NCBI GenBank assembly: GCA_030430715.1
Contig: JAUIJZ010000007.1
Coordinates: 1 to 64,000, forward strand
DNA: 64,000 bases
Source of the DNA: Alphaproteobacteria bacterium
GTDB taxonomy: Bacteria > Pseudomonadota > Alphaproteobacteria > Caulobacterales > Aquidulcibacteraceae
Direction of reading: 5' to 3'
Shown in pieces: positions 27,261 to 30,706 of this stretch; position 1 is the first letter of the stretch, and every line of letters starts with the position of its first letter. The notes under the pieces were generated by a model, which made no database searches, was not told the DNA's origin, and was given only the letters and a program-made list of their open reading frames with translations. A program made the translations under genes and the position numbers.

Positions 27261-27851
27261 ATGCAGGCGCTGGGCAAACATTCCATTGCTTCGATCGTGC
27301 GCGGCGGCCTCGGAGTCGCCTGGATCGCATCCTGGCTGTTCGCGGCCGCGACCGTGCTTGCTCTGCTTGGCTATGTCATTGCGCTGATCATGTCCGCCGT
27401 GGGCGGTGTCGACCCGCAATGGCTGCACGACATGAGCCAGCAAATCCGCCTACGCAACGGCAGCATCGAAAATTATAACGGCCCCGGCTGGCTGCCCGTG
27501 TTCGGCACATTCGCGCTCGCTGGCGTCGGCGCCGGCGGCGCTTTGGTCGTCATCTGGCGCCTGCGCAAAATGTTCGACAATTTCCGCAGCGGCGAGCCAT
27601 TCCGGCGCGAAAACGCCGACCATTTGCGTGTGATCTGGATCACCATGCTGATCGTGGAAATATCCCGCCTCGCCCTGCTCGCACTGCTGGGCTTGCTAAT
27701 TCGCATTCTTGGCGGCCCTGGCGTCACGGGTCATTCGGGCGGCGGCGAATTCAACCTGATGACTTGGGCGTCGATCCTCATTCTGATCGTGCTCTCGGAA
27801 ATCTTCCGCGAAGGCGCGCGCCTGAAGGAAGAGCAGGAGCTGACGATCTGA
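27261..27851 (+). CDS. DUF2975 family four-helix membrane protein
   Basis: A 196-aa protein with four predicted membrane segments (about residues 15-48, 78-102, 126-150 and 165-185) and the segment FRSGEPFRRENADHLRVI typical of DUF2975. Function is unknown. The stop overlaps the start of a small XRE-type regulator (TGATG), a pairing seen for DUF2975 genes in other bacteria, so the membrane protein may be part of a sensing or immunity pair with it. Confidence 0.8.
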   Translation: MQALGKHSIASIVRGGLGVAWIASWLFAAATVLALLGYVIALIMSAVGGVDPQWLHDMSQQIRLRNGSIENYNGPGWLPVFGTFALAGVGAGGALVVIWRLRKMFDNFRSGEPFRRENADHLRVIWITMLIVEISRLALLALLGLLIRILGGPGVTGHSGGGEFNLMTWASILILIVLSEIFREGARLKEEQELTI

Positions 27852-28111
27852 TGGCGGTCCGCGTAACCCTCGATCGCATCCTGCTTGAGCGGCGTATGTC
27901 GCTCACGGAATTGAGCGAGCAAGTCGGCGTTACGATGGCCAATCTGTCCATTCTCAAGACCGGCAAGGCCAAGGCGATCCGCTTTTCCACACTGAGCGCG
28001 CTCTGCCGCGTACTCGATTGTCAGCCCGGCGAATTGCTGAGTTACGAACCGGGCGAAGATGGCGACGACGTAGAGGCTTCCGCCTCAGACAATCGGCGCG
28101 CCAATCTCTAA
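27851..28111 (+). CDS. Small XRE-type helix-turn-helix regulator (YozG-like)
   Basis: An 86-aa protein that is almost all one HTH domain: RILLERRMSLTELSEQVGVT, recognition helix region MANLSILKTGKAKAIRF, then STLSALCRVLDCQPGELL. The form is that of the HTH_26/YozG group. It starts inside the stop codon of the DUF2975 gene. Target DNA is unknown. Its last 27 bp overlap the convergent gene at 28085-28546. Confidence 0.85.
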   Translation: MAVRVTLDRILLERRMSLTELSEQVGVTMANLSILKTGKAKAIRFSTLSALCRVLDCQPGELLSYEPGEDGDDVEASASDNRRANL

Positions 28112-28571: not shown

Positions 28572-29285
28572 TCAGGCGATGGCGCGCTTTTGCGCCTCGA
28601 ACAATTGCCCGCAGCCAAGCTTCGCCAGCCGCATCAATTCCGCAAATTCTTCATCCGAGAACGGGCGCGCTTCGCCGGTGGCTTGGATTTCGATCAACCT
28701 TCCATCGCCCGCGAGCACGAAATTGGCGTCCACTTCGGCGCTTGAATCTTCCGCGTAATCGAGATCGAGCACGGGCGCATCGCCGAACACGCCACAGGAA
28801 ATCGCCGCCACTTGGCCGGTAATCGGATTGGTCTTCAGCTCTTTTTCTTCGACGAGATAAGCACAGGCTTTCGCCAGCGCGACCCAGGCGCCGGTGATCG
28901 CAGCTGTGCGTGTGCCGCCATCGGCCTGGATCACATCGCAATCAAGCGTGATGGTGCGGTCACCCAACGCCTTGAGATCGATCACGGAGCGGAGGCTGCG
29001 CCCGATCAGGCGCTGGATTTCCTGGGTCCGGCCGGATTGCTTGCCTTGGGCCGCCTCGCGGCGGCCGCGCGTGTGCGTGGCGCGCGGCAGCATGCCGTAT
29101 TCGGCTGTCACCCAGCCGCGGCCTTGGCCCTTGAGCCAACCGGGGACGCCTTGCTCGACGCTGGCGGCGCACAGCACGTGGGTTTGGCCGAACTTGGCGA
29201 GGCAGGAGCCTTCGGCGTAGCGCGATACCGCGGTTTCGAGCGCAATGTCGCGCAATTGGTCTGGCGCGCGGCCGGACGGACGCAT
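28572..29285 (-). CDS. rph: Ribonuclease PH
   Basis: Phosphorolytic 3'-5' exoribonuclease that trims tRNA precursors. The 237-aa protein has the N-terminal [23 protein letters not shown] and [20 protein letters not shown] motifs that hold the phosphate and metal sites. CAGGAG lies 6 nt before the ATG. In many alphaproteobacteria rph is directly divergent from hrcA; here an ATPase gene and its control region lie between them. Confidence 0.97.
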
Positions 29286-29317
29286 GGGAAACTCCTGAAA
29301 ACTAGGTTTGTTTGGTT

Positions 29318-29342
29318 AAGTTAGGTGAAATAAACCTAACTT
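29318..29342. promoter_or_regulatory. Inverted repeat IR1, TTAGGT-N7-ACCTAA operator-like site
   Basis: Perfect 9-bp arms AAGTTAGGT (29318-29326) and ACCTAACTT (29334-29342) around a 7-nt AT-rich spacer. It begins 33 bp upstream of the rph ATG. A TATAAA on the minus strand at 29349-29344 would place the rph transcription start inside the repeat. It is one of three sites with the same core and spacing in this gap, which fits a dimeric DNA-binding protein. The regulator is unknown. Confidence 0.7.
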
Positions 29343-29426
29343 TTTTATAAACGCCTATGGGCATGGCTGAATTGGGCCGGCAAGTCGAGAGCCACTCCAT
29401 CGCGCGCATAGCAAAGTTCGCTGGAG

Positions 29427-29445
29427 TTAGGCCGACTCAGCCTAA
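29427..29445. promoter_or_regulatory. Inverted repeat IR2, TTAGGC-N7-GCCTAA operator-like site
   Basis: Arms TTAGGC (29427-29432) and GCCTAA (29440-29445) with the same 7-nt spacing as IR1. It covers the place where a -35 element would lie for the TATAAG at 29464, upstream of the ATPase gene. Confidence 0.65.
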
Positions 29446-29469
29446 AGAACCGATATAGTTCTCTATAAG
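29441..29469 (+). promoter_or_regulatory. Candidate promoter of the ATPase gene
   Basis: TATAAG at 29464-29469 is a fair -10 element in an AT-rich stretch 41 bp before the ATPase ATG. The hexamer 17 bp upstream (CCTAAA) is a poor -35 and overlaps IR2, as might be expected for a regulated promoter. TATAGT at 29454 is an alternative -10. Confidence 0.35.
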
Positions 29470-29472
29470 ATT

Positions 29473-29493
29473 GTTAGGTTAGATCGGCCTAAC
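29473..29493. promoter_or_regulatory. Inverted repeat IR3, TTAGGT-N7-GCCTAA operator-like site
   Basis: GTTAGG (29473-29478) and CCTAAC (29488-29493) are perfect complements; with the IR1/IR2 spacing the core is TTAGGT-N7-GCCTAA with one inner mismatch. It would cover the transcription start expected from the TATAAG at 29464 and ends 16 bp before the ATPase ATG, a position suited to repression. Confidence 0.65.
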
Positions 29494-29509
29494 TCGGCCA
29501 AACAATCCG

Positions 29510-30706
29510 ATGAAAGCTACCCTCAACCCTTATAATCCCGGCGCCGGGGTCCCTCCCCCCGAACTGGCGGGCCGCGATGATCTGATCGAGCAGGCGCGCG
29601 TGGCGGTCATCCGCGCAAAGACCGGCCGCGCCGCCAAAAGCGCGATCATGCTGGGCCTGCGCGGCGTCGGTAAAACAGTGATGCTCAACGCCGTTGAGGC
29701 CATTGCAGAAGAGCAAGGCTGTCAAACCGCGCTGTTGGAAATCGATCCCGACAAGCCTTTGGCGCAACAACTCGCGCCACAGCTTCAGCACACGCTGCAT
29801 CGTCTCGACCGCATGAAAAAGGCCGGCGCCGATTTGCAGAAGGCGTTCGCATCACTGCGTTCATTCGGCGCCATGTTCAAAGCCTCGATCGGCGAAATTG
29901 AATTCGGCCTGGCCGGGCCCGCCGCTACGGGCGACCTGACCATCGATCTCACAGAGCTTTTGCTCGCCATCGGTGAAGCGGCCAAGAAGCGCGAAACCGC
30001 CATCGTGCTTCTGATCGATGAGATTCAATATGTGCAGAAAGGCGACCTCTCGGCGCTGATCATGGCGATGCACAAAGTTTCGCAGCGCCAATCACCCATC
30101 CTTTTGTTTGGCGCGGGCCTGCCGCAACTGGCGAAGCTTGCGGGCGATGCGAAATCCTACGCCGAGCGCCTCTTCGACTACCCGCCAATCGGCCCGCTCT
30201 CAGATACGGGCGCGCGGCAAGCGCTGGCTGGACCGGCCGAAAGAGAAGGCGTGAAATACGCAAGCGACGCGCTCGATTTCGTGCTGGAGCAAACCGGGCG
30301 CTATCCGTTCTTTCTGCAAGTTTGGGGCGCGCATTGCTGGGAGGCGGCGGCCAAATCGCCGATCACGCTGGCCGACGCCAAAAAGGCCAGCATCGCCGCG
30401 ACAGCCGCGCTCGACGAAGGAATCTTCAAAGTCAGATTGGCGCGGCTCACGGAGCGCCAGCGCTCTTATGCATTGGCCATGGCCGGCTTTGGCCCCGAGC
30501 CGGTCCATTCTTCCGACGTGGCCAACCAGCTTGGCCTCAGCCTCAGCCAAGCGGCGCCCATACGCGACGAACTCATCAAAAAAGGCATGGCGTATTCGCC
30601 CGAGCGCGGGCTGATCGGCTTCACCGTGCCGAAATTTGACGATTATATGCGCCGCACCTGCACCCCCAAGCCACCGGGCCGCCGAAAAGGAAAGAGCGCA
30701 GGCTGA
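29510..30706 (+). CDS. Lone AAA/STAND-type ATPase with C-terminal winged helix
   Basis: The 398-aa protein begins with an NPYNPGAG..PPPELAGRDD segment and an ATPase_2/Orc1-Cdc6-like domain: Walker A GLRGVGKT near residue 50, Walker B VLLIDEIQYV near residue 168, and a sensor-like LLFGAGLPQLA. From about residue 305 a winged helix follows (SSDVANQLGLSLSQAAPIRD) and a basic tail. Related orphan ATPases occur in many bacteria, but their role is unknown to me. No effector gene is adjacent. It ends 42 bp before hrcA. No Shine-Dalgarno is obvious. It may regulate itself through the TTAGG repeats; that is inference. Confidence 0.8.
   Translation: MKATLNPYNPGAGVPPPELAGRDDLIEQARVAVIRAKTGRAAKSAIMLGLRGVGKTVMLNAVEAIAEEQGCQTALLEIDPDKPLAQQLAPQLQHTLHRLDRMKKAGADLQKAFASLRSFGAMFKASIGEIEFGLAGPAATGDLTIDLTELLLAIGEAAKKRETAIVLLIDEIQYVQKGDLSALIMAMHKVSQRQSPILLFGAGLPQLAKLAGDAKSYAERLFDYPPIGPLSDTGARQALAGPAEREGVKYASDALDFVLEQTGRYPFFLQVWGAHCWEAAAKSPITLADAKKASIAATAALDEGIFKVRLARLTERQRSYALAMAGFGPEPVHSSDVANQLGLSLSQAAPIRDELIKKGMAYSPERGLIGFTVPKFDDYMRRTCTPKPPGRRKGKSAG

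Follow-up and report, generated by a model that had tools for sequence, protein, structure and literature searches.

Helically phased palindromic arrays beside an orphan AAA+ ATPase gene: candidate autoregulatory operators

We analyzed a 64,000-nucleotide stretch of DNA (the window) from an alphaproteobacterium of the Aquidulcibacteraceae (assembly GCA_030430715.1, contig JAUIJZ010000007.1, positions 1 to 64,000). In this window, rph (RNase PH) and the gene for an orphan AAA+ ATPase diverge from a 224-bp gap. A first-pass annotation of this DNA had claimed that the gap contains three TTAGGY-N7-RCCTAA palindromes, here called inverted repeats (IR) 1 to 3, and we found exact matches at 29321-29339, 29427-29445 and 29474-29492. 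The 9-bp perfect arms claimed for IR1 (29318-29342) are also present.

We found that each palindrome is part of an array of three half-sites. GTTWGG-like half-sites recur every 10 bp and are inverted across a 9-bp spacer (Table 1). Two features had been missed in the first-pass annotation: the extra half-site in the 10-bp register beside each palindrome, and the resemblance between TTAGG-N9-CCTAA and the DtxR/IdeR operator in its outer arms. Array 3 lies directly past the -10-like box of the putative ATPase promoter and array 1 directly past that of the putative rph promoter, in the same orientation towards their own genes. Aligned relatives share a module on the ATPase and rph sides (CATAGnnCTCTATAGGA, GTTWGG-N9-CCTAAC, CCAAACAAAC); common to both promoters are the -10-like box, GTTWGG-N9-CCTAAC and CCAAAC. 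The alignments comprised the window with 13 relatives (ATPase side) or 9 relatives (rph side), the rows having been picked because they fit the module. Judged from the spacing of the boxes, the centers of arrays 3 and 1 would fall at approximately +8 of the ATPase and rph transcripts, respectively, and array 2 would cover the -35 zone of the ATPase promoter, with its center at approximately -40. The DNA between arrays 2 and 3 has a conserved ATA box and no match to the sigma-70 consensus. Both promoters also have a second ATAG-like box approximately 11 bp upstream of the -10-like box (CATAGnnCTCTATAGGA; window 29450-29470 and 29344-29365).

Table 1. Genes, arrays and promoter-like boxes around the rph/ATPase gap (window coordinates)
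Feature	Coordinates	Strand	Details
rph (RNase PH), divergent neighbor	28572..29285	-	Pfam RNase_PH, 7.5e-29
Array 1 (IR1)	29310..29340		GTTTGG 29310, GTTAGG 29320, inverted CCTAAC ending 29340; 9-bp arms 29318-29342
-10-like box TATAAA, putative rph promoter	29344..29349	-	ATA core aligned in 9 relatives and the window
Array 2 (IR2)	29416..29446		GTTCG 29416, GTTAGG 29426, inverted CCTAAA ending 29446
-10-like box TATAAG, putative ATPase promoter	29464..29469	+	ATA core aligned in 13 relatives and the window
Array 3 (IR3)	29473..29503		GTTAGG 29473, inverted CCTAAC ending 29493, inverted CCAAAC 29498-29503
Orphan AAA+ ATPase, 398 aa	29510..30706	+	AAA_16 core, PF13191 7.8e-14; Walker A GLRGVGKT, Walker B LLIDE
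C-terminal winged helix, residues 306-386, proposed DNA-binding domain	30425..30667	+	AlphaFold2 pLDDT 94.3

No exact TTAGGYN7RCCTAA occurs outside the gap in the assembly (3.24 Mb, 172 contigs, 98.8% complete), and in 20,000 composition-preserving (Markov) shuffles of the gap we obtained one exact site nine times and two or more sites never. Allowing one mismatch added four places elsewhere in the assembly. The total for the pattern was then 7, compared to 20 for a reversed-pattern control; because the control count is the higher, there is no genome-wide excess. The looser pattern GTTWGG-N9-CCWAAC gave two exact matches, both in the gap (control, also 2), and 12 matches with at most one mismatch (3 in the gap; control, 18). 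With no excess of the strict or the looser pattern over its control, we rejected a genome-wide regulon in this genome. CIRCE, the operator of HrcA, has the consensus TTAGCACTC-N9-GAGTGCTAA. A scan of the window at up to three mismatches gave no CIRCE match, in agreement with the first-pass annotation, which had set this element apart.

We found that the site tracks with the ATPase gene. Among ATPase loci at 54-85% identity, 22 of 23 had a site (at most one mismatch) upstream, including loci in records titled Deltaproteobacteria and Bacteroidetes. The 23rd (locus L060) has an exact TTAGGYN7RCCTAA at -55. Loss of the repeats in relatives that keep the ATPase, or random occurrence across the genome, had been named beforehand as grounds against an operator; neither was seen. 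The commonest site positions in loci of the genus are approximately -37 (array 3) and -84 (array 2) from the ATPase ATG.

The spacing of the half-sites follows a rule. Counts rest on oriented locus sets (L038-L117 and later). From the 80 loci L038-L117 we excluded L038, L048, L051, L058, L102 and L107 (Ns, frame breaks, partial or duplicate) from the spacing sets, and from the distant set also L085 (short upstream region) and the near-duplicates L077, L079 and L087, leaving 19 near and 51 distant loci. In the 19 near loci, direct repeats at 10 bp were found 25 times and convergent pairs at 18 bp and 28 bp were found 24 and 21 times, respectively; the counts in shuffles were approximately zero. 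A two-strand motif mixture fitted to the near group gave AAGTTWGGCC, with approximately 6.6 occurrences per locus. No lattice pairs were found in the 260 bp downstream or at 640-900 bp upstream of the near loci.

Distant relatives of the ATPase have a lattice of the same kind built from other half-sites. In the 51 loci at 45-52% identity, AGTTTA occurred 39 times (4.8 expected) and the recurring distances were 9-10 and 18-20 bp, and 18, 27-28 and 37-38 bp. A lattice pair was present upstream of 22 of these loci; no lattice pairs were found in the 130 bp downstream or at 300-430 bp upstream. A search for a palindromic 25-mer in this group locked on to a composite of half-site and TATAA and was dropped, and the two-strand motif mixture returned only GC-rich words. 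We therefore counted words and spacings instead. In many individual loci, palindromicity by itself did not reach significance.

We then applied the lattice to 22 held-out loci, using distances fixed beforehand from the spacing counts of the training set. The held-out set drew on 29 loci (L146-L174) and consisted of L146-L164 less L160 (no start found), plus four plasmid loci; L162 (mostly N upstream) was kept, and those past L164, which are fragments or weak matches, were left out. At the DNA level, the similarity between held-out and training loci did not exceed 79%. There were 57 half-sites in the held-out loci (17.8 in shuffles), 23 direct lattice pairs (0.3 in shuffles, with a maximum of 2 among 200) and 17 convergent lattice pairs (0.2 in shuffles). 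At least one lattice pair was present upstream in 11 of the 22 loci, whereas none of the 22 had one within 130 bp downstream of the gene.

ATPase paralogs in one genome have different operators. Genome G006 has two paralogs, one preceded by the GTTWGG type and the other by an AGTTTAYC-N9-GRTAAACT type. G028 has three paralogs and three operator types. In G363, the operators of two paralogs differ only in part, with AGTTTA in both. Recognition of each operator by its own ATPase would explain this pattern, and a host-wide regulator would not.

The ATPase is, according to its AlphaFold2 model, an orphan AAA+/winged-helix protein with an archaeal SSO1545/Orc1-Cdc6-like fold. The model has a mean predicted local distance difference test score (pLDDT) of 89.6 and includes the C-terminal winged helix. 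The first Foldseek match to the whole protein was a Cdc6 (1fnn), and VIA placed the archaeal proteins PABY2304 and SSO1545 at the top, followed by Orc2. Both lists also contain ATPases of the NLR/Apaf type, TnsC and RuvB, which stand lower in the VIA list. For the winged helix alone, VIA returned mostly regulators of the ArsR/SmtB and MarR types (Z 10.7 to 9.3), among which stood the winged helices of an ORC and of some NLR proteins. Foldseek gave no match to the winged helix alone at E 1e-3 or better; the best was HlyU, at 3e-3.

We found that the site on the rph side depends on gene order. At 12 loci of the genus rph is immediately divergent from the ATPase, and in 10 of these a site lies 25-46 bp before the rph start. 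At five other loci an aspartyl-protease-like gene (homology checked) stands between rph and the ATPase; none of the five has an rph-side site, and all five have a site 133-150 bp before the ATPase, on the side of the intervening gene. Where the rph locus lacks the ATPase, no site was found in seven of eight genus genomes examined; G012, whose rph is partial, and G015, which gave no rph match, were not in this set. In genomes of other genera, 0 of 8 had an rph site (7 of these genomes are from the same family). The first-pass annotation had proposed an operator system shared by rph and the ATPase. Its tie to the ATPase held up. General sharing with rph did not: because rph has no site where a gene intervenes or (7/8) where the ATPase is missing, control of rph looks like a consequence of position, as far as these sequences indicate.

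The aspartyl-protease-like gene (PF13650, 17.4 bits, below the cut-off) has two alternative locations: it separates rph from the ATPase, or it lies antisense in the interval from the ATPase to hrcA; loci with it in either position are L038-L040, L044 and L053, and L042, L045, L049, L050 and L058. Window positions 27261-28111 hold an ordinary-looking pair of genes, one for a DUF2975 protein followed by one for a Cro/C1-type HTH_26 protein. Three relatives, G001, G010 and G019, share an additional palindrome (L138:1078, L139:1140 and L140:1107) beside a TATAG/A box, between an aminotransferase-like gene and the end of a transporter-like gene that by eye resembles a dicarboxylate/sodium symporter; it is a possible second target. 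The ATPase copies of G014 (L026) and G023 (L028) are split in two or have an in-frame stop, as if decaying or misassembled.

We think it likely that the palindromes form helically phased operator arrays to which the neighboring ATPase itself binds, thereby regulating its own expression. ATPase subunits would bind GTTWGG half-sites through the C-terminal winged helix. Half-sites 10 bp apart would put neighboring subunits on one face of the DNA, and the 9-bp inverted center would pair two runs of subunits head to head. Given such phased, head-to-head subunits, we propose that ATP-dependent oligomerization makes binding cooperative. With array 3 over the transcript start and array 2 over the -35 zone, occupancy would shut off the ATPase's own promoter. 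Repression is probably the sign of this autoregulation, and the simplest one, because array 3 covers the presumed ATPase start site; at low occupancy, array 2 (at approximately -40) might activate the promoter. Array 1 would be a reverse-facing copy of the same promoter-operator module and would subject whichever gene is present on that side (rph in the window) to the same regulation.

Several observations weigh against this interpretation. Plant NLR winged helices (7crc and 7dfv) are in the same VIA list and have the same fold, so that operator binding does not follow from the fold by itself. The recognition-helix residues are associated with half-site type, yet this association follows one clade split and provides no independent test, and we therefore draw no claim from it. 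No match to the sigma-70 consensus was found at the rph or ATPase promoter at the threshold of the tool. At two loci (L046 and L048), rph is adjacent yet there is no rph-side site. Conversely, G022 has no detectable ATPase, yet in front of rph (L123:119-139) it retains a perfect palindrome together with a TATAA box; the rph-side site may thus be left over from an ATPase that has been lost. A lattice pair of strict half-sites was found in only 22 of the 51 distant training loci, and at least one lattice pair in only 11 of the 22 held-out loci (14 with a looser half-site); for the four plasmid copies, the numbers were one (strict) and three (looser). Finally, the G028 assembly is only 57% complete, so its three ATPase copies might not share one host.

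One alternative candidate for the binder is a metal repressor of the DtxR/IdeR type. The first-pass annotation had stated that the repeats match no operator that could be named, overlooking that TTAGG-N9-CCTAA is identical to the outer arms of the DtxR/IdeR consensus operator, given as TTAGGTTAGSCTAACCTAA in the available part of PMC8464063. The 19-bp length also agrees, and the left nine bases of IR3, TTAGGTTAG, are a DtxR half. However, the inner bases of 45 near-group sites are neither conserved nor symmetric, the full palindrome TTAGGTTAGSCTAACCTAA was not found, other half-sites are used in the distant arrays, and the array structure and protein family differ from those of DtxR/IdeR. There is no PF01325 match in the window's own genome, and among 30 genomes of the genus none had a match above the family cut-off (12 had weak ones), compared to 12 of 14 control genomes. 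We consider a DtxR/IdeR-type operator very improbable. Some other host regulator, encoded elsewhere, could bind the arrays and control both the ATPase and rph, and the site kept before rph in G022 would fit such a protein. It is hard to reconcile with paralogs of one genome (G006, G028) that differ in operator type, which makes a single host-wide regulator unlikely, or with arrays that accompany the gene in unrelated surroundings without a common neighbor: in a simple comparison of open reading frames, no neighbor family was found in more than three of the distant loci, and the surroundings of the four annotated plasmid copies are unrelated. We regard this possibility as quite unlikely.

The arrays might also serve mainly to nucleate or anchor an Orc/TnsC-like ATPase assembly on DNA in replication, maintenance or sensing, with promoter control secondary. 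The fold (near archaeal AAA+ ATPases and Orc1/Cdc6, with TnsC farther down the list), the up to approximately six phased half-sites seen by eye in L103 and L161, and the presence of the gene on plasmids as well as chromosomes are consistent with this notion. However, all arrays that we found lie upstream of the gene, next to promoter-like boxes, and none lie downstream, and a mainly anchoring role with promoter control secondary is in our view unlikely. Finally, the repeats could act in RNA, as hairpins in the leaders or, for IR1 followed by a run of T, as a terminator. A terminator scan does match IR1 on the + strand (2 matches in the region; mean of 2.7 in shuffles), but the run of T corresponds to the A-tract next to the rph -10-like box and does not occur in, for example, L050. 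Compensation is absent, since just 44% of 45 sites have a paired W position, and hairpins leave the 10-bp direct repeats unexplained. Action in RNA thus seems highly unlikely, and recognition by the adjacent ATPase is the interpretation that we prefer.

The ATPase family is broadly distributed. At E 1e-3 we found matches in 31 of 385 genomes of the class (including the window's own; some are fragments). Matches were also found in 113 plasmid records and in one phage record, the last being a 40% relative in a 5.9-kb record. Relatives are encoded on genome contigs titled as many phyla. If the arrays are operators of the ATPase, this little-studied family, found in records of many phyla and on plasmids, acquires a specific DNA target that can be predicted. 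With the half-site and the spacing rule of 10 bp and 9 bp, operators of other family members can be sought in sequence, and paralogs in one genome with different half-sites are a ready specificity swap. A broader and more doubtful idea is that of a widespread one-gene unit of chromosomes and plasmids, in which an Orc1/Cdc6-like bacterial ATPase would assemble on its own phased lattice into a two-sided, ATP-dependent filament or coil. This assembly would sense ATP, foreign DNA or the state of replication and report it through control of the promoter.

In the literature that we searched (Creative Commons-licensed papers in PubMed Central, with most subscription papers outside), we recognized no treatment of this ATPase family or its operator. 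Autoregulation is a known kind of control; a phased operator lattice for an Orc/SSO1545-like bacterial ATPase is not described in the parts of that literature available. The closest structures are archaeal. SSO1545 (2fna; VIA Z 22.8, 317 aligned residues, 4.4 A) and PABY2304 (2qen; VIA Z 23.8, 322 aligned residues, 4.7 A) resemble the ATPase over the whole length, with an AAA+ core and winged helix in both, but are only 14-18% identical to it. To our knowledge, no operator is known for either. Archaeal Orc1/Cdc6 initiators likewise have an AAA+ core and winged helix (1w5t; VIA Z 20.3), and they recognize repeated, oriented DNA boxes. The ATPase matched the Orc1/Cdc6 family model TIGR02928 weakly (24.2 bits, compared to a cut-off of 181.3), which places it outside the family by sequence, and, unlike the Orc1/Cdc6 boxes, those of the ATPase precede the protein's own gene and have a 10-bp period. 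ParR/parC and similar operators have helically phased direct repeats of 10-11 bp over their own promoter. The ParR protein is unrelated, and the runs of the ATPase arrays are inverted about a 9-bp center.

Two bacterial proteins are also comparable. LypB of Caulobacter, another Orc1-like AAA+ protein, has TPR-like repeats and belongs to an immune-type system, according to the available part of PMC13236601. IniR is a mycobacterial signal-transduction ATPase that regulates transcription of the iniBAC operon, and its ATPase domain has been likened to SSO1545 (PMC5760070, available part). It differs from the ATPase studied here in its size (818 aa in M. marinum), its MalT-like domain and its SdiA-like DNA-binding domain, as described in the same part of that paper. 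Among the proteins that we met in the accessible text, IniR is the nearest characterized regulator with an ATPase domain compared to SSO1545.
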